In this document: positions 98 to 24,082 of the stretch, piece by piece | Position numbering within the stretch: the stretch's first letter is position 1 | How the letters are laid out: every line of letters starts with the position of its first letter | From: a virus | Direction: 5' to 3' (one strand) | IMG/VR virus record: IMGVR_UViG_3300042691_032639 | Location: 1-29,498 of that record | DNA length: 29,498 nucleotides | Program-made: the position numbers and the translations under genes | Notes under the pieces: model-generated | The model's input: only the letters and a program-made list of their open reading frames with translations | What the model was told of the DNA's origin: nothing | Databases searched by the model: none

Positions 98-892
98 TTA
101 AGCGTCTAAATCCATATCTTCAAAGGCTTGTTCAAATTCAGATTTAGCCTTTACAGACTTTTTAGCTTGTACTGGCGTTGCTCCAAACTTTTTAAGTTCT
201 GTAGAGGTTTTTTCTACTTCTTCTTCTGATTGATCAGAAGCTAGGAATGTTACTACGATTTTCTCTACTTCTTCTGAAGTCTTACGAGCAAATAGAGTGT
301 TGAAGTCTGGAATTTGCTTTAATAGCTCCGCAGCCTTAGCTGGTCCTTCATCTGTTAGCTTTGATGAATTACGGGCAGCTGTAACATTTGTATCGGCGTA
401 CTGCTTACCGTTAGCTTGTTCTTTTAGAAGGAACATATCTACGCCCTTATCTGGGTCTGTGATATCTCCATACTCCTCGTCAAGAACATATTGTAGAAAA
501 GCCTTGTACACAGTTTGGCTATAACCAAATACTCTAACACCTTCAGTTTCTTCGCCTCTTACATAGATAGCAGAGTAGAAGCGTTCCTTGGCACCGATGT
601 CCTTAGCCATCTTCTTACCATCTTCTGATTTCTCTCTATAAAGCTTTGCAACTAGATCACAAGCTTCACAGTGTTCGCCATAGTTCTTCTTTGGGCACAG
701 AAAACCCTTAGCGTCAATTTGGTAGTGAAAGTAGAACTTCTTGAATGGATCACCATCCTCTGGACAAAGAACGCGAATCTTTGTCTTTACTCCATCCTTA
801 AGCGAGAAAAACTTGTTATTCTTATCGCTTGGTAGGTTCTTCTTTTGGGCTTCGTCTTGCTTCTGTTGCATCTTTTTCATATCAATAGCCAT
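98..892 (-). CDS. 32: Single-stranded DNA-binding protein, T4 gp32-like
   Basis: The 264-aa product is a T4 gp32-type ssDNA-binding protein, which coats single-stranded DNA in replication, recombination and repair. The sequence shows a basic N-terminal segment (about residues 1-20). It has a zinc-ligand pattern H56-x9-C66-x8-C75-x2-C78, close to the H/C/C/C set of T4 gp32. An acidic C-terminal tail ends EQAFEDMDLDA, the region used by gp32 to recruit partner proteins. Length is slightly below T4 gp32 (301 aa). The ATG at 892 has a strong AAGGAG RBS (900-905). The gene is flanked by a hairpin-containing leader and its own terminator, which suits high and independently controlled expression. 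It uses more AAG, GAC and CTT-type codons than the AT-rich structural genes, as does the capsid gene. Confidence 0.9.
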   Translation of the reverse strand: MAIDMKKMQQKQDEAQKKNLPSDKNNKFFSLKDGVKTKIRVLCPEDGDPFKKFYFHYQIDAKGFLCPKKNYGEHCEACDLVAKLYREKSEDGKKMAKDIGAKERFYSAIYVRGEETEGVRVFGYSQTVYKAFLQYVLDEEYGDITDPDKGVDMFLLKEQANGKQYADTNVTAARNSSKLTDEGPAKAAELLKQIPDFNTLFARKTSEEVEKIVVTFLASDQSEEEVEKTSTELKKFGATPVQAKKSVKAKSEFEQAFEDMDLDA

Positions 893-905: not shown

Positions 906-961
906 GTCGGTCAGTGTCCCTGCCGACTGTTGTAAGACTCTAGCACGGTCTGCGCTAGAGT
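906..961 (-). promoter_or_regulatory. Structured 5' leader of the gp32-like gene (two hairpins)
   Basis: The roughly 68-base gap between the 84-aa gene and the gp32-like ATG can form two stems. One is ACTCTAGC/GCTAGAGT (937-944 with 954-961, 8 bp). The other is GTCGG/CCGAC (906-910 with 923-927), which abuts the RBS. The first stem is not followed by a U-tract, so it is not a typical terminator. T4 gene 32 is autoregulated through structured leader RNA; a similar role here is inference. Confidence 0.5.
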
Positions 962-1215
962 TAAAGCACAAATTTTTTAGTTTCTTTTTTTACTTCACCT
1001 AAAACAGTTTTCCAATTAAAAATTCTTATTTCTTGACTTTCTAAATCCCAAACTCTTTCTAAACCATCTTGTAACGGGTAAGTTTTTTTACCAGTGAGTT
1101 TGCTCTCTAGAAATAGCTTAGGCATTTCTGCTAATTTTACAAATTTCATTTTTCTCAGAGATCCATCTTGCTTCTTGAACACGCCTTCGTAAACATCTAA
1201 TTCAACCTCTGTCAT
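961..1215 (-). CDS. 84-aa hypothetical protein
   Basis: This small protein is rich in Lys and Glu and has alternating hydrophobic positions suggestive of beta strands (VELDVYEGVF, EIRIFNWKTVLGEV). Its ATG overlaps the TGA of the tubulin-like gene (ATGA at 1212-1215), so the two are probably translationally coupled. It precedes the structured leader of the gp32-like gene. No family was recognised. The genomic context suggests a role with the polymerase/tubulin-like/gp32 block, but no biochemical function can be read from the sequence. Confidence 0.8.
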   Translation of the reverse strand: MTEVELDVYEGVFKKQDGSLRKMKFVKLAEMPKLFLESKLTGKKTYPLQDGLERVWDLESQEIRIFNWKTVLGEVKKETKKFVL

Positions 1216-2036
1216 TCTTGAATCCTTTGACTAAAAGCGTGTATAAAACAATAATCTTGCTCTTGCTTTGTAGAGTATATTGTAAAGCTTACTTTGCAAT
1301 TGTCAACTGCTTTTGCAGTAACTAATGATTTAATATTTTTTAGAATAGAACCATCAGTTTTTAATTTTTCTTCGTTAAACACAAAATAAAAATATTTATC
1401 ACTTATATTTTGTAAGTTATATAAATAGTTCTCTACATTATTTTTTATATCGTAAACACCAACCGTACATATCCTTGCTATATCTTTTGGTGTTGCTATG
1501 TTCCCAAATATACCATCAGTTGTTTCGTTTGTTAAGATAAAATTTAAACAATTAAATATGTATTCGTTTATTTTTTGATAATATCCTATAACTGGTAGGT
1601 CGCCTAATATGTTTTCTACATTTGGGTTACTAACTAAATATATTTTCTTAAATATACCAGATCTAGCATATTCCTGTAAGACATTAAAAGTAAGTTTTTC
1701 CTGTAATAAATTATTACCAGCTAGAGAATTAGTCTGTGGTCTTATGTAGATTATATTTAATTCTCTCTCTTTTAACTGCTGAAGTATACGCAGTGATGCT
1801 CCAGATATCATTCCAGAGCCTCCTACTATCAGGAACGCTCTATCTCCAATTTTATCTAAATAATTTGATAGGCTTGGAGCATTTTTTTCATAGTCTTCGG
1901 GTGTTTTTTGTTCCTTAACAGGAATACAGTTTTCACCCTCAATATTTTTATCTATCAAAATAACATTATATTTCTCATCACCTTCAAATAATTCAGCGAT
2001 GTTGCAACCAGCGTTTCCAAGTCCAATTATAGTCAT
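1212..2036 (-). CDS. Divergent FtsZ/tubulin-superfamily GTPase-like protein
   Basis: The 274-aa product has the layout of an FtsZ/tubulin GTPase domain. A first strand and glycine loop, MTIIGLGNAGCNIAELF (residues 1-17), resemble the FtsZ N-terminal VIGVGGGGGN. A second strand follows (NVILID, 24-29). Residues 69-81 (LIVGGSGMISGAS) sit where the tubulin signature GGGTGTG lies, with one extra residue and substitutions. Next come a helix and strand (QQLKERELNIIYIRP), a strand ending in SNPN (132-139, like the FtsZ IPND segment), a long helix (150-168), and a T7-like loop around GNIATPKDIARI (178-189). A reduced C-terminal beta domain (214-274) completes it. It is shorter than bacterial FtsZ and has no long C-terminal tail. 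It starts one base after the polymerase stop (TAATATG). Phage tubulins (PhuZ, TubZ-like) form filaments that position or segregate DNA; filament formation and GTPase activity here are inference. A different Rossmann-type nucleotide-binding protein is the main alternative. Confidence 0.7.
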   Translation of the reverse strand: MTIIGLGNAGCNIAELFEGDEKYNVILIDKNIEGENCIPVKEQKTPEDYEKNAPSLSNYLDKIGDRAFLIVGGSGMISGASLRILQQLKERELNIIYIRPQTNSLAGNNLLQEKLTFNVLQEYARSGIFKKIYLVSNPNVENILGDLPVIGYYQKINEYIFNCLNFILTNETTDGIFGNIATPKDIARICTVGVYDIKNNVENYLYNLQNISDKYFYFVFNEEKLKTDGSILKNIKSLVTAKAVDNCKVSFTIYSTKQEQDYCFIHAFSQRIQE

Positions 2037-2037
2037 A

Positions 2038-3240
2038 TTATACCTTTAGTTTTATTTTCTTCATTTCACCGTAATTCTTTCCAATCTTAACATTAGCTAG
2101 AAATTTACCGTATTTAGTATCTTGCACAATTTTTAGAATCTCTAAAACGTCATTTTTTTCATCATCTGCTAGGTCCAAGACAAATTCATCGTGTAGAAGA
2201 AAAGAAATAAATGTCTTCTTACCTTTTAGATAGTCGTCTACCTTTAATATTTGCCTGTGATACAAATCAATAAAAGTGCTTTGATTTAGATAAGGAATAG
2301 CATGATGTTCATCGCTTTCAATCTTACGTCCAAAAGGAGTATGAACATAGCCATCTACCCAATACAATGTCTTCAAAGAGTTTTTATCAAAAAGAGCATC
2401 TAGTTTTGGAGCATACTTCTGATAAACTGGGTTGCTTGAATTATAAAGCCATTCTGTGACAATTTTTTTCGTGTCTGTTCTATTCAAGCCTCCTAAAATG
2501 TCTCTGCCAATCCATTCGTACATATCTTCTTGTGGTTGCTCTTTGTTTAAGAGGGCTAAAGATGTTCTGAATTCAGCCGCGTTGACATCAATTGATACAA
2601 ACCAATCATTTTGAGGTTTTAGCGCACCTCTATAGGCTTTTTGAAAGTTTTGAATAGGAAAACTATTTTGCTTAGTTGAGAGCCGACCGGTGATTGATCC
2701 ATAAAGATTATAATTTACATATTTTTTAGCATCGCGGATACGATGAAAATAGGATAAATCTCTTTCGGTAATAATATTATTTTTTAGCACATCAAGATCA
2801 ATGTTTAATTCTCTGAATTTGATATCTGTTAAAAGCTCGTTGAAACGTCTGAAAAATTCGTACTCCTGTGGTTTAGGGTATGTCTTTAAAACATGTTCTG
2901 TTATTTCATTTTTTAAAAAACAATATTCCAACAGAAATTTTTTTGGCACCAAATCGTAAAAACAATTTTCTCTCAATGAGACTTTTGCTTCTTTGAAAGA
3001 TGCAAGAAAAGCTTTTAACTTGTAATTAATGAAATCCCAATTTTCTTTCAAATTATCAGGGCACACTTCTCCAAGAGATTTACCCTCACAATAAAGTTGT
3101 GCATAGTCAATATTTCTACCTTTTAGGAAGGCAGAATATGACCAACTTTTAGTTAAATTTTCTGGAATTTCTTTTATTAGATCATTCTCAATATAAATAG
3201 CAACACAATTTTCTTTATCATCCAGAGCTTGAAAGATCAT
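2038..3240 (-). CDS. Minimal family-A DNA polymerase (palm/fingers, no exonuclease domain)
   Basis: The 400-aa product carries the PolA polymerase motifs in order. These are YGSITGRLSTKQNSFPIQN (180-198, like TGRLSS...NLQN), motif A with D218, E223 and R225 (SIDVNAAEFR), and motif B with R254, K258 and Y266 (RTDTKKIVTEWLYN). They are followed by GYVHTPFGR (297-305) and motif C HDE (350-352). Both catalytic aspartates (D218, D351) and the motif B Arg and Lys are present; the usual Phe/Tyr of motif B is Thr262. The N-terminal ~165 residues are too short for a 3'-5' exonuclease domain and no DxE exonuclease motif was seen, so any proofreading would come from another protein. The gene sits 7 bases after a structural-region gene and 1 base before the tubulin-like gene. 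T4 itself uses a family-B polymerase, so this is a departure from T4. Expected role: template-directed DNA synthesis, either as the main replicase or as an accessory polymerase. Confidence 0.88.
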   Translation of the reverse strand: MIFQALDDKENCVAIYIENDLIKEIPENLTKSWSYSAFLKGRNIDYAQLYCEGKSLGEVCPDNLKENWDFINYKLKAFLASFKEAKVSLRENCFYDLVPKKFLLEYCFLKNEITEHVLKTYPKPQEYEFFRRFNELLTDIKFRELNIDLDVLKNNIITERDLSYFHRIRDAKKYVNYNLYGSITGRLSTKQNSFPIQNFQKAYRGALKPQNDWFVSIDVNAAEFRTSLALLNKEQPQEDMYEWIGRDILGGLNRTDTKKIVTEWLYNSSNPVYQKYAPKLDALFDKNSLKTLYWVDGYVHTPFGRKIESDEHHAIPYLNQSTFIDLYHRQILKVDDYLKGKKTFISFLLHDEFVLDLADDEKNDVLEILKIVQDTKYGKFLANVKIGKNYGEMKKIKLKV

Positions 3241-12445: not shown

Positions 12446-15424
12446 TTAGTCTGTAAATGAAGCACCGCTTCTTGTAATTATAAAATCAACAGCTATAAAT
12501 TCAATTGCTCTAGCTGGCTTTAAGTAAATTTTAGCATACAAGATATTTCTATCTATTAAATCATCTGTTGTTGTAGTGCTATCCAAAACAACTTTATAAT
12601 CTGTTAGCCCTAGATTTGATTTTATGCCAGATAAAAATGTTTCTGCTGCGCTTCTAAATCTTGCCCAAGTTACTTCTACGTTTTGATCAAACAAGATGCC
12701 TGATGCAATCAATGAAATTCTCTTTTTAGCAAAGATTAATAATCTGCGAACATTAATTCTGTCAAGTGCAGAAGGAATTATTTGTAGTGTTTTTTGACCA
12801 AACACAACTATGCCTTCATTAACAAAGTTTGCAATTGGATTAATATTTGCTTCATACAAATCATCGCGTTGTTTTGCAGTTAAGTGAAGGGCGGTATCGG
12901 TAACTTTAAAACCAGCAGCAAATTTAGTTCTTGAATCTGGCTCTTTTAGCCCACCACGATTAAACCCTGCTGGAGCAAACCATACAGCATTGCTTTTCTT
13001 TTCTGAACTTGCTAAAGTTCCGACAGCAACAACTGATGGTGGAACCCAAACGCCCAATGTAGGACCAGATGATTGCGGTACGGACATTTTAACCCAAGGG
13101 AAATATGTAGCACCGTAGCTTGAATTTAAAACTCTTGATCTTAGATTGCTAACCGCAGTTCTTACGTTTGTAGGTTTAACGCTTTCATGACCTGATACGT
13201 TTTCATGTGCTGGTCTATAATCACCAGTTAAATCAATGATGGCTAATGCATCGCCTCTTGTTTGGCAATTGTCAACAACTAATTTTGTTAATGATTCATT
13301 TGTCAAGCCGGGAACTGCCATTAGGTTCATATTAACTCTTTCTGGGTCTTTTACCGTGTTAATAGCAACCTTATAGCTATTATAGACATAAGAATTTTTA
13401 TCAGTTGAACTACCATTCATAGCCGCGTTTTTAAATGCTTCTCTTTCAGTAACATCTAAGCCGTCAAAACCACCATGTAAAGCTACTGCAAATTGGTTTA
13501 TAACAACTGGTGTATCGCCAAGGAATGCATTTGACCCTGTTGGAAGAACACCGTTTCCATTAACTGCTGTATAAGATGTACCTGCATACCTTGAACCAGT
13601 TGCCCAAGTTGCTGTTGACGCTGCTCCCGCTGGAGTGTTTACGCTGGCCGAAACGTCGTCTAAAGTAAATACAAACGAGTATTCAAACGAGCTACCAGTT
13701 GGAACATAAAACTCAGATCTGCCTAAAGGTCTTAGAGCATCAACGTGGAACATATCATTAGGCGCGTTAACATAGGCATTTATACCTTTTGCAATACCAA
13801 AAAAGTTTGATGTTGAATCATCTTTTGCCCCGGCAACTGAGGCTACAGTTGACATCTTTGGAAACACCAAAGAGTGTGTTGTCTGCACTGCACTTCCAGT
13901 ATAGCCAAATATAACAGCACCGTTATCGTTTACTGTGCCAGCGTATCTACCATAATAGCTTGAGCTTAGAAGATAAGATGTAGAACTAAATGTTGATGCT
14001 GGTTTTAATTCTATTTTCTTTGGTCTTGGTGGGCCAAAGAAACCGAATGGCAATAAGCCTTCACCATAAACTTTATTAGCGATACCTTCTGCTAATTCTA
14101 CTCTTATGATTGAAGATTGATTATCAAATTCTCCATACTCAATCAATCTTTCTTCTGTATAATTCCATTCAACATATTTATCGCCAATTTTACGACCAAT
14201 GAAATTTTCTGAAGAGGCGTCTAAGCTACAACCTGTAAACTCTTCAACGATCACCAATTTAGAATCGGTTGAGTTAATTTTGCAAACAGTTACATCGAAA
14301 GAGCCATATTTTTCTAAACTAGAGTTTGGCCCTTTAATATTGCTAATGTTAATTTTATAATTTTCTTGTTCAAATTCACCTTTGCTAATTGATACAAATC
14401 TAAACAAATTTTTTGTACCAAGATCTACTTTATTAACGGTAGAATCAGAACTTAAATATTCTGTTTCGGTTTGTGCGAAAGATCCTGTTGACTCTTGATG
14501 CTGTGAAAAGATCCAACCGGATTTAGCGTATTGGCAACCAAATTCAAAACTCTTTGGATCTAGATCATCTATAGCCTTCAAAGGAATTATAGCTGCGGCT
14601 AAATTATTAACTGTACCGGCATCTGCTGTTAAATTTTCATTTAAAAACTTTTCATAAGTTTCGCCAAGCCAATAATTTTTAACGTCTGAAACGCATTCAG
14701 AATTTGTAGAAGTTGGGTTTACATTAAAATTCTTTCTGATAAACAAAGGACTTTCTGGGTTCATATTAAATTGAACTCTAGAAGATGCACCAGATTTAGA
14801 AAAAACTACTGCTGTAAAGCCTTTATTGACTGTATCGCTTGACTTAACCCAAACGGAGGAACCAGAGATAATGCCAGATCCAGTTAAAGGAGCGCCTTCT
14901 AACAAGATACCACCGCCATCTGCAACGTAAAATATACCAGCTACAAATGAATTTTCTTTAAACCCGTCAAAATCAGTACCAAGAGACTCTGTTAGCTCTG
15001 CAACAACTAAAGCATAAGCACCAGCATTTGAACTAATGGAGGAAGCGGGAGAACCAACTTTCCAACCAGCTTTACCATCTACCGTCGCTTCAGAATGTTG
15101 AGCACCAAGCATACGTACAACCGTAATCGCGGAAACATCAGCATCTAAATGTGCTTCTGCTGCGATTGATGCATAAGATGGAGCTAATTTTGAATTTCCT
15201 TCTCTCCAAACATCGCCAACTGATTCTTCGCCTGTTATTTTTGCGCCAAATACATCTTCAAGTTCTTTTTTGCTTTGTATAATGGTAGGTATAAATGCTG
15301 GTCCTTTAGAAAATTTACCAACAATGACAGGGCCTATCTCAGTTGTGGTTGGTGCTAAAACGCTTCTATCAATCTCCTTTACTTGCACGCCGGGAGATAC
15401 GAATTTATAGTCTTTAATTGGCAT
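12446..15424 (-). CDS. 18: Tail sheath protein, gp18-like, unusually large
   Basis: The 992-aa product has classic sheath ends. The N-terminal part is FVSPGVQVKEIDRSVLAPTT (8-27), then FSKGPAFIP and a VVRMLG strand. The C-terminal part is RINVRRLLIFAKKRISLIAS, then NVEVTWARFRSAAETFLSGI and a YLKPARAIEFIAVDFIITR end. These terminal domains interlock in all contractile sheaths. It is about 330 residues longer than T4 gp18 (659 aa); the extra length is in the middle (about 110-640), a Ser/Thr/Gly-rich beta region that should form surface-exposed domains. The gene is directly followed by the tube gene. A variant of the intergenic motif lies upstream at 15461-15475. Confidence 0.93.
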   Translation of the reverse strand: MPIKDYKFVSPGVQVKEIDRSVLAPTTTEIGPVIVGKFSKGPAFIPTIIQSKKELEDVFGAKITGEESVGDVWREGNSKLAPSYASIAAEAHLDADVSAITVVRMLGAQHSEATVDGKAGWKVGSPASSISSNAGAYALVVAELTESLGTDFDGFKENSFVAGIFYVADGGGILLEGAPLTGSGIISGSSVWVKSSDTVNKGFTAVVFSKSGASSRVQFNMNPESPLFIRKNFNVNPTSTNSECVSDVKNYWLGETYEKFLNENLTADAGTVNNLAAAIIPLKAIDDLDPKSFEFGCQYAKSGWIFSQHQESTGSFAQTETEYLSSDSTVNKVDLGTKNLFRFVSISKGEFEQENYKINISNIKGPNSSLEKYGSFDVTVCKINSTDSKLVIVEEFTGCSLDASSENFIGRKIGDKYVEWNYTEERLIEYGEFDNQSSIIRVELAEGIANKVYGEGLLPFGFFGPPRPKKIELKPASTFSSTSYLLSSSYYGRYAGTVNDNGAVIFGYTGSAVQTTHSLVFPKMSTVASVAGAKDDSTSNFFGIAKGINAYVNAPNDMFHVDALRPLGRSEFYVPTGSSFEYSFVFTLDDVSASVNTPAGAASTATWATGSRYAGTSYTAVNGNGVLPTGSNAFLGDTPVVINQFAVALHGGFDGLDVTEREAFKNAAMNGSSTDKNSYVYNSYKVAINTVKDPERVNMNLMAVPGLTNESLTKLVVDNCQTRGDALAIIDLTGDYRPAHENVSGHESVKPTNVRTAVSNLRSRVLNSSYGATYFPWVKMSVPQSSGPTLGVWVPPSVVAVGTLASSEKKSNAVWFAPAGFNRGGLKEPDSRTKFAAGFKVTDTALHLTAKQRDDLYEANINPIANFVNEGIVVFGQKTLQIIPSALDRINVRRLLIFAKKRISLIASGILFDQNVEVTWARFRSAAETFLSGIKSNLGLTDYKVVLDSTTTTDDLIDRNILYAKIYLKPARAIEFIAVDFIITRSGASFTD

Positions 15425-22156: not shown

Positions 22157-24049
22157 TTAGCCTTCTAGATCGCGGACAACAACTAGACCGTACATATCTG
22201 GTCTAACCATCGCTTTGCCGTAACGAGTCATAACAGCTTTGCGTGGTACGAAGGTTGAAGGATCGAAGATGGTTGGTGTGGTTTGTAGTGGGACATAAGG
22301 AGCGTAAACATAACCGCTCTCTAGGAATGAGCCACCTTTACGACCAACTAGGATTACGTTGCGTAGGAAGTATGGATCTACGATAACATCCCACTTCTTT
22401 GATAGTTCACCGACCTTAACTGCGCCAACTGAACCTTTTTCAGCTTCGTGAGTTACTGAAGCGCGGAAGCCAGCGGTGAATTCAAGGATGTTTGCAACTT
22501 CTGGTGAGACAACGAGGAAGTTTGCACCGCCGCGTAATGTCTTACGATAGATAGCTGCTGATACATCGTTGATTGTTTCAACTAGGGTTTCATACCACAT
22601 TGAAACGTTACCGGTGAAATCAGGAGGAGCAGCATAATCTGTTGATGCTGCGCTTGAACCTAGAACGTCAGTACCAGTCTTACGGTTCAAGAATTTACCG
22701 GGACGGCGTGACCAGTATAGAGTACCTGCGGTTGAACCCTTGACTAGATCGTTTAGAATTTCTTGGTCAATTTCAAGACCAATTTGTTCTGATAGAATGC
22801 TGGTCAATTCAACTTCGGCGTCGAGGTTGTGATAAGCATTCAAATCTTGACCTAATTCTGGGGTCCAGCTTGCCTTGAGCTTGCGTGATTGAGCAGTGAT
22901 TGAGAAGCTGTCAACCTTTAATTCTAGTTCTGGTAGATTTGCAGAACCTTCAAGAACCATACCTTGATTGCTGTTATCACCTTTCAAGATACCAAGTTGA
23001 TCTTGTGCTGTACCAACGGTGCTGATACGATCTTTAACTGGGAATTGTAGAACGATATTGCCAGCTGGACTTGAAGCGCGTGCTGAACCACCAACTAGTG
23101 TGCTACCTTCTGTTTTTGCAGCAGAAGCTAAACCAGAAGTTGTACCAACTAGAACAAATTCTAGATATTTTGTACCAGCGGTATCATTAGTGACACCCGA
23201 TCTACCCTTACCTTCAACGATACGGCTCAAACGACGAACAACGTTGACAGCACCAGAGCTACCTGATAGTGTAAGAGCAGCATTTGAAGAGACGGAACCA
23301 GTAACGATTGAGAGCGAAACTAAATCATTGACTGCAACTAACTCAAATGAAGCATCCGCCGCAGCTAATGTCGCAACTGGAGCGCGAACAACAAGTGCTG
23401 TTTTTGTTGTTTCACTTAGCAAGTCTGGGTCAAAACGAATGTATGAACCACCCGATTCAAGCGAAGATGATGAGCCTAGATCGACAACTTTAGTGATTGC
23501 AAAAGAAGTACCGTCACCGAATGATGCTGACGCACGGGCACGACCATAACCGCTCATTAATGAGTAGAAACCAGCTTCTACTAATTCTTTGCCAGCTGAA
23601 TCACGGCCATCTAAACGAACACCGCCTGTTAATTGGACACCAAGGCGATCACCGAAAACAGATGAATTTTGTGCCATAACTTCATCGTTAGCAAAACCTA
23701 GTCTTTCACCTCTTCTGAAGTCGAGGAAGAATACTAGACCTGATGGTAAGCTCATTGGTTGGACTGAAACTAGATCGTTAGCAATCAAACCAGCGAATAC
23801 ACGGCGAACGATGGGGAATGCTACAGCGGCGAAACCTTGTACGTCACCACCACCCATTGAGTTAGCTTCTTTCAATAGTTCTTGTGCTTGGTTCTCAAGC
23901 AAACGTGCCATAGTGCTTTTCTTGTGTTCTGTGTTCAAGCCTTCTAATAGACCTGATTTTTCCCATTTGCCAACGAGGGCTTGGGTTTCCTTTAGTACGT
24001 TGCGTTCAACAACGCCTTCAGTTAGTGTTTCTAAAATATTTTTTGACAT
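22157..24049 (-). CDS. 23: Major capsid protein, gp23-like
   Basis: The reading frame is open from 24061, but the ATG at 24049 is chosen because GGAG (24056-24059) lies six bases before it; this gives 630 aa. The hallmark is QSRKLKASWTPELGQDLNAY followed by LDAEVELTSILSEQIGLEID, the gp23 core seen in T4-like phages. A propeptide of ~61 residues ends LLKE, followed by ANSMGGGD. This matches the (L/I)xE rule of the T4 prohead protease and the position of T4 gp23 cleavage (65/66). FAAVAFPIVRRVFAGLIAND and SVQPMSLPSGLVFFLDF follow, as in gp23. The protein is ~110 aa longer than T4 gp23, with a Ser/Ala/Val-rich central region (about 150-330) that may form an inserted surface domain. Codon use is more GC-rich than in the neighbours, fitting very high expression. 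Confidence 0.95.
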   Translation of the reverse strand: MSKNILETLTEGVVERNVLKETQALVGKWEKSGLLEGLNTEHKKSTMARLLENQAQELLKEANSMGGGDVQGFAAVAFPIVRRVFAGLIANDLVSVQPMSLPSGLVFFLDFRRGERLGFANDEVMAQNSSVFGDRLGVQLTGGVRLDGRDSAGKELVEAGFYSLMSGYGRARASASFGDGTSFAITKVVDLGSSSSLESGGSYIRFDPDLLSETTKTALVVRAPVATLAAADASFELVAVNDLVSLSIVTGSVSSNAALTLSGSSGAVNVVRRLSRIVEGKGRSGVTNDTAGTKYLEFVLVGTTSGLASAAKTEGSTLVGGSARASSPAGNIVLQFPVKDRISTVGTAQDQLGILKGDNSNQGMVLEGSANLPELELKVDSFSITAQSRKLKASWTPELGQDLNAYHNLDAEVELTSILSEQIGLEIDQEILNDLVKGSTAGTLYWSRRPGKFLNRKTGTDVLGSSAASTDYAAPPDFTGNVSMWYETLVETINDVSAAIYRKTLRGGANFLVVSPEVANILEFTAGFRASVTHEAEKGSVGAVKVGELSKKWDVIVDPYFLRNVILVGRKGGSFLESGYVYAPYVPLQTTPTIFDPSTFVPRKAVMTRYGKAMVRPDMYGLVVVRDLEG

Positions 24050-24055
24050 TTTATT

Positions 24056-24059
24056 CTCC
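24056..24059 (-). promoter_or_regulatory. RBS fixing the capsid start
   Basis: The minus strand GGAG is six bases upstream of the ATG at 24049. The upstream in-frame ATG at 24061 overlaps this RBS and has no RBS of its own at normal spacing. Confidence 0.7.
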
Positions 24060-24082
24060 ATAAACCTTTATAGGTTGTAATT

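Follow-up and report, generated by a model that had tools for sequence, protein, structure and literature searches.

TubZ is the partition tubulin of plasmids and phages, and its partition systems include an adjacent DNA-binding adaptor and centromere repeats. In both TubZ and PhuZ, a C-terminal helix, H11, follows the last strand. The phage tubulins we know of belong to nucleus-forming jumbo phages (PhuZ) and to partition-type elements (TubZ). The Asn after strand S6 (N165 in FtsZ), together with the aromatic residue and the Asn of helix H7, presumably contacts the guanine in FtsZ and tubulin. The GGGTG[T/S]G signature and the NxDxx[D/E] hydrolysis motif of the T7 loop are described as conserved in FtsZ (PMC12583498), and two distinct tubulin representatives are described for jumbo phages (PMC7824862). 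In the present study, we analyzed a window consisting of the 29,498-base virus record IMGVR_UViG_3300042691_032639 (34.6% G+C), of which bases 1-29458 also occur unchanged within an IMG/VR record of 85,591 bases (G001). The window encoded P0001, a protein of 274 aa at 1212..2036 on the minus strand, which was assigned as a predicted minimal tubulin/FtsZ-superfamily protein from its open reading frame, a structure model, and a profile alignment. Homologues with 35-61% identity to P0001 occurred in the same gene order, and dN was well below dS in five pairs of family members (0.16-0.47 versus 1.1-3.8, with dS near saturation in some). Judged from these comparisons, P0001 is a real gene.

On the minus strand of the window, T4-type structural genes were followed by a DNA polymerase, P0001, an 84-aa protein, and gp32. 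The structural genes encoded a capsid protein (phrog_138, E 1e-69), a sheath, a tube, and a baseplate hub. The gp23-type capsid, the sheath, and gp32 were in agreement with the T4-like contractile-tail phage proposed in an initial annotation of this DNA. The tail sheath (12446-15424; 992 aa) and the major capsid protein (22157-24061; 634 aa) were long, and their best PHROG matches lay mainly over the C-terminal parts. The same annotation had placed P0001 beside a DNA polymerase, and a short family A polymerase of 400 aa was indeed found directly upstream (2038..3240, minus strand), with its last base 1 nt before P0001. It was identified by Pfam and by profile: the DNA_pol_A match covered residues 308-391 (E 1.8e-7) at 30.9 bits, below the cut-off of 34.3, and a profile of the polymerase homologues matched the annotated family A polymerase of Flavobacterium phage immuto (E 9.2e-19). 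The gene for the 84-aa protein (961..1215, minus strand), which was found in 26 of 84 loci, overlapped the end of P0001 by 4 nt, and its product showed a weak WYL_2 match (PF10902, E 7.9e-5, below the cut-off). The gp32-type single-stranded DNA-binding protein was encoded at 98..892 on the minus strand (PF08804, E 3.2e-12).

Gene order was counted over these 84 loci, which comprised 68 distinct proteins and included both L009 and L023 from one record; the near-identical L012-L015 were outside the set. A family A polymerase lay upstream of the P0001-family gene in 77 of the 84 loci, and in the other seven the sequence began no more than 376 nt ahead of the tubulin gene. For 62 of the 77 loci, the polymerase and the tubulin gene were separated by -13 to +2 nt; two loci had gaps of 24 or 33 nt, ten had gaps of 304-310 nt, and three had gaps of 527-810 nt. 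The loci with gaps of 304-310 nt, which included L043, L044, L065, and seven others, may contain an extra small gene. Downstream, gp32 was present in 83 of the 84 loci at a distance of 14 to 785 nt, with the single exception (L047) at a contig end. This fixed place between two DNA-copying genes suggested that the tubulin-like protein is used in phage DNA copying, and as a sign of a replication role the operon position is only suggestive. Polymerases related to that of the window (E 9.2e-19 and 5.5e-14; 441 and 408 aa) were also located near gp32 (E 3.7e-53 and 4.2e-57) in immuto and Microcystis phage Mel-JY01. The complete records of immuto, Mel-JY01, LR756508, and RM378 yielded no P0001-family member in a search run without a positive control. 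A model of the same kind recovered the window gene at E 2.2e-120 and, in the parts of the immuto, Mel-JY01, and RM378 records that were covered, had no match below E 0.13. Since immuto and Mel-JY01 combine the polymerase and gp32 with no family member found, such a module can work without the P0001 family.

The structure of P0001 was predicted by AlphaFold2 from a 54-row alignment of the family, with a pLDDT of 93.6 and a pTM of 0.91 (92.5-93.6 over the five models). A Foldseek search of the PDB with this model returned 524 chains at E <= 0.001; among the best 50 of the 524, TubZ was at the top (E 4.5e-14) and was followed by FtsZ (about 1e-13). Among the VIA-align matches listed, CetZ 3zid_B gave a Z of 24.2 (253 aligned, 2.8 Å), TubZ 4ei7_B a Z of 22.9 (270 aligned, 3.4 Å), and FtsZ 2r6r a Z of 22.0 (264 aligned, 3.6 Å), with eukaryotic tubulins next (Z about 21). 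The matches to TubZ, FtsZ, and CetZ spanned the whole chain, covering two domains joined by the central helix H7 (helices H7, H8, H9, and H11 are named by their order along the chain). The initial annotation had called for a structure comparison that might reveal a Rossmann dehydrogenase or a ThiF-like fold in place of tubulin; the 50 Foldseek and 50 VIA rows listed were all tubulin, FtsZ, TubZ, or CetZ, with no Rossmann or ThiF protein. When viral models were searched, the best match (E 5.1e-13) was to a protein annotated as FtsZ from an uncultured phage, and other phage tubulins followed, including the PhuZ of Noxifer (E 5.4e-8).

The relationship to FtsZ was also detected by hhalign. The FtsZ set comprised 27 sequences, namely E. 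coli FtsZ and 26 of 30 FtsZ loci, each retained if its ORF showed GGG[TS]G[TS]G; the signature was thus present in 27/27 by construction. The 54-row alignment (A2) matched this set with a score of 37.7 and a P of 2.4e-4, at a probability of only 43.6%, and the alignment was in register over residues 3-167, through helix H7. No control reached this score: the 30 column shuffles averaged 15.7 and peaked at 21.8, four other phage families scored 12.4-18.3, and the reversed profiles scored 13.7 and 17.4. When the 113 family sequences were supplied, of which hhalign used 101, the score was 39.7 and the probability was 54.9%. In global mode the alignment was meaningless (score 4.6), and the C-terminal half of P0001 was unaligned by the profile. 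Collectively, the model, its whole-chain matches, and the hhalign score above the controls supported the tubulin/FtsZ fold claimed at the outset. We regard this predicted fold as secure and practically certain, with the structure model as its main basis.

The sequence elements listed in the initial annotation for the 274-aa ORF at 1212-2036 (GLGNAGCN, GGSGMISG, SNPN, and a long helix) were all located as claimed, with GGSGMISG at residues 72-79 and SNPN at residues 136-139. The T1-type loop GLGNAGCN (residues 5-12; 2001..2024, minus strand) was set on GVGGGGGN of FtsZ by hhalign. Conservation was evaluated over 113 homologues, obtained by reducing 130 distinct sequences to those at under 90% identity. 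In this set, G7 was invariant (113/113), and G10 and D29 were each kept in 110/113. N137 (1626..1628, minus strand), which was aligned with N165 in the IPND stretch of FtsZ, was Asn in 107/113, N157 was Asn in 109/113, and both were Asn in 107/113. According to DSSP of the model, the central helix H7 comprised residues 152-170 (1527..1583, minus strand) and carried Y153 and N157, which were set on F182 and N186 of FtsZ (E. coli positions); residue 153 was Y, F, H, or W in 97/113. In terms of sequence, guanine-nucleotide binding by P0001 is probable, and GTP or GDP would be bound through a tubulin-type pocket.

The altered T4 signature GSGMISG (residues 73-79; 1800..1820, minus strand) occupied the position of GGGTGTG in the FtsZ alignment. 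The canonical GGGTG[TS]G was found in 0/113 homologues, in which the commonest residues at 73-79 were G, S/A/G, G, any residue, I/V, S/T, and G/A, with the I or V at the position of the fifth glycine of the FtsZ signature. The divergent signature and the possible new branch that had been proposed were borne out. One detail was corrected, in that the signature was said to contain an extra residue; GSGMISG fitted GGGTGTG without a gap, and the gap introduced by hhalign corresponded to two residues missing from the query. The I or V at the fifth glycine could also mean that the signature is so altered that nucleotide binding itself is lost. Other residues were strongly kept, including Q121 and S126 (both 113/113), R125 (112), G193 (112), T191 (111), and R188 (104), and the conservation of Q121, R125, S126, T191, and G193 could reflect another activity.

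At the position of T7 and H8, the model showed a loop with no predicted helix (residues 171-188; 1473..1526, minus strand). The chain ran from the long helix (152-170) through this loop to a strand at 189-196 with no H8, no H9 followed, and the model ended 5 residues past the last strand without an H11 helix. The stretch 170-188 had a length of 19 residues in 112/113 homologues, and NxDxx[DE] between residues 160 and 195 was found in 0/113. Within the loop that follows the long helix, residue 185 (D185 in P0001) was acidic in 77/113 homologues and is a candidate for the remaining acid of the T7 region. The T7-like loop with D185 described in the initial annotation was thus only partly right: the acid was widely kept, whereas the hydrolysis motif was absent and no H8 helix was predicted. 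A complete loss of the T7 region was also considered, and this reading was weakened by the acid at residue 185. Because NxDxx[DE] and H8 are missing, P0001 would be incapable of the usual trans-activated hydrolysis.

Compared with TubZ (4ei7, 2xka), the top Foldseek row, P0001 had a similar predicted fold, and both occur in mobile elements. However, the identity was 15-16%, and P0001 lacked the canonical signature, the T7 motif, and the predicted H8, H9, and H11. P0001 was also placed in a replication operon, its neighbors being the polymerase, the 84-aa WYL_2-like protein, and gp32. FtsZ shared the fold, the profile register to residue 167, and the aligned guanine-site Asn, whereas P0001 was a phage gene product of 274 aa without the C-terminal tail, and both motifs were absent in 113/113 homologues. 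The archaeal CetZ (3zid, 4b45) gave the highest VIA Z among the matches listed, although its identity to P0001 was 12-17% and P0001 was a phage gene with rebuilt motifs. PhuZ of nucleus-forming jumbo phages is likewise a phage tubulin. Its Foldseek match was weaker than those of TubZ and FtsZ, which came from a different library, and PhuZ was absent among the VIA rows listed. In contrast to PhuZ, P0001 belonged to a T4-like phage with gp23- and gp32-type genes, and its model had no H11.

We propose, at about an even chance, that P0001 is a minimal tubulin of the replication module that binds guanine nucleotide, lacks a canonical filament GTPase, and forms a scaffold or oligomer where replication takes place. 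In this mechanism, P0001 would be made together with the polymerase, given the abutting or overlapping frames of most loci, and would work where the phage replicates its DNA. Its most likely form there would be a nucleotide-gated scaffold or oligomer by which replication proteins are held or positioned. For the separate parts of this proposal, a role in replication is moderately favored, and self-assembly into oligomers or filaments is possible with the balance slightly against it. The main rival is that P0001 is a monomer that senses GTP as an accessory subunit of the neighboring polymerase or of gp32 and forms no polymer. The adjoining polymerase, with frames abutting or overlapping in 62/77 loci, would suit such a subunit, as would the absence of the filament-GTPase motifs in 113/113 homologues and of H8, H9, and a C-terminal H11 in the model. 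However, we know of no tubulin-superfamily protein that serves as an accessory subunit of a polymerase or gp32, and we consider this explanation rather unlikely. A lower likelihood was assigned to P0001 as a cap or poison of host FtsZ, which would offer its nucleotide face, stop the filament, and block division. The one-sided anatomy of P0001, in which the guanine-site residues are kept and the T7 motif and H8 are missing, is what such a cap would need, but the constant location beside replication genes fits this poorly, and conservation over 130 distinct sequences exceeds the expectation for a host inhibitor; the cap therefore appears distinctly unlikely. It is less likely still that P0001 forms a conventional dynamic GTPase filament of the PhuZ or TubZ type that centers or segregates phage DNA. 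The fold, the phage setting, and the structural matches, including those to PhuZ and TubZ, are shared with such filaments, whereas the absence of GGGTG[TS]G and NxDxx[DE] in 113/113 homologues argues against this type of filament, as does the model without a C-terminal H11.

The extent of the family was determined from IMG/VR. With the neighboring polymerase as the query, nine loci were recovered, including one in G001, and P0001 matches adjoined the polymerase in 9/9. An alignment of five members then matched 493 IMG/VR stretches, and an alignment seeded with a divergent member matched at least 579; these are counts of stretches and not of loci, and each search contributed its 80 best loci. 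The 84 proteins were reduced to 82 by removal of L009 and L023, the single record with an in-frame stop, and 80 more came from the second search, with records partly overlapping. The family thus comprised at least 130 distinct sequences among 162 extracted proteins. Its members came from phages under many IMG metagenome numbers. In the open PMC literature, as represented by titles and the beginnings of abstracts and exclusive of subscription papers and preprints, no such family was described. The P0001 family is apparently a large and undescribed family of uncultured phages.

Conventional searches scarcely detected this family. As a single sequence, P0001 had no believable relative in Pfam, PHROGs, or the PDB. 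A tblastn search of 50,697 phage records gave no match for three members including P0001, with records very near the window possibly excluded. The best PHROGs row among 54 family members was at E 0.0051, and NCBIfam gave nothing above the cut-off for five members. For TIGR00065, P0001 had no row at E <= 0.1, and L016 alone of five members had one (E 0.052). When the PDB was searched by hmmsearch with the family profile A2, a single row was returned (E 0.82). PF00091 was absent from the Pfam matches of P0001 at E <= 10, and a search of the window with PF00091 gave no match; in three long records, the family genes gave weak PF00091 rows (E 0.0068 to 0.87). Among the 54 members, the most frequent weak Pfam match was Tubulin (11/54, best E 0.01), and TrkA_N, a Rossmann domain, was matched by 10/54 with the best single E-value in the family (0.0002, versus 0.01 for Tubulin). 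These TrkA_N matches and the N-terminal GxGxxG would be expected from a Rossmann dehydrogenase or ThiF-like enzyme merely resembling tubulin, a reading that is already contradicted by the predicted model, its whole-chain tubulin match without a dehydrogenase among the 50 rows listed per structure search, and the more frequent Tubulin match, and that we consider extremely improbable.

A second phage tubulin was found in the PF00091 search. P0008, a protein of 364 aa, was encoded in the 165.9-kb record G005 (L103:1027-2121, minus strand) and carried GGGGGTGS and an FDSKDLE stretch. Its family had 107 matching IMG/VR stretches, which are not distinct loci, and 80 loci were retained, 79 of which gave proteins of 300 aa or more. 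GGGTG[TS] was present in 79/79 of these proteins and a [FY]Dx[KR][DE]L stretch in 78/79. PF00091 was matched at E <= 0.01 by 28/28 aligned members, and the P0008 profile matched CetZ (E 2.6e-10) and FtsZ (E 4e-10) in the PDB. The P0008 model (pLDDT 90.7) gave a VIA Z of 32.8 to TubZ and contained helices 250-257 and 278-288 at the H8 and H9 positions. Both families thus belong to the tubulin superfamily, but only the P0008 family has the canonical signature and helices at the H8 and H9 positions. The hhalign comparison of the two families (E 0.07) was only suggestive of kinship. A tblastn search of the phage records with one member found no match for the P0008 family. A small gene and a sigma-like gene each lay beside P0008 in 5/80 loci.

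The co-occurrence of the two families was counted in 27 long P0008 records (of the 80 loci) and 18 P0001-family records, picked mainly by length. A P0001-family gene was also present in 7 of the 27. Conversely, among the 18 P0001-family virus records, which include partial ones and so cannot show absence, P0008 was found in G005 alone, and it was not found in G001. Within these records, the two are therefore no obligate pair, and the two subunit types of two-tubulin viruses may or may not interact. More tentatively, a tubulin may have become a core component of the replication module in a large group of uncultured T4-like phages, with a rebuilt phosphate loop that would bind guanine nucleotide, with the filament-GTPase motifs gone, and with a function alongside the polymerase and gp32; part of the group would then have two tubulins, one GTPase-competent and one GTPase-altered subunit type. 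The P0001 family adds a further family to the phage tubulins, with a smaller body and neither defining motif, kept between the polymerase and gp32. It probes which elements of the tubulin fold nucleotide binding and assembly require, and it bears on whether T4-like phages organize replication with a cytoskeletal protein. Because some relatives also carry the canonical second tubulin, a two-tubulin system of phages can be tested directly.

Three further loci showed irregularities. In L017 (L017:8001-9132), the polymerase appeared as two overlapping ORFs in different frames, which may reflect an error or a real split. The P0001 homologue of L009 (IMGVR_UViG_3300032291_003696) had an in-frame TAA at codon 186 (L009:9761-9763), and the frame was alignable beyond it, so that the stop is either a sequencing error or the mark of a broken gene. 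In L099 (CP070664.1), a segment with polymerase, tubulin, gp32, and RecA-like genes was located inside the 'chromosome' of a WOR-3 MAG. Since this segment reads as phage genes beside N runs, it looks like a piece of phage DNA in what is probably a mis-joined contig.
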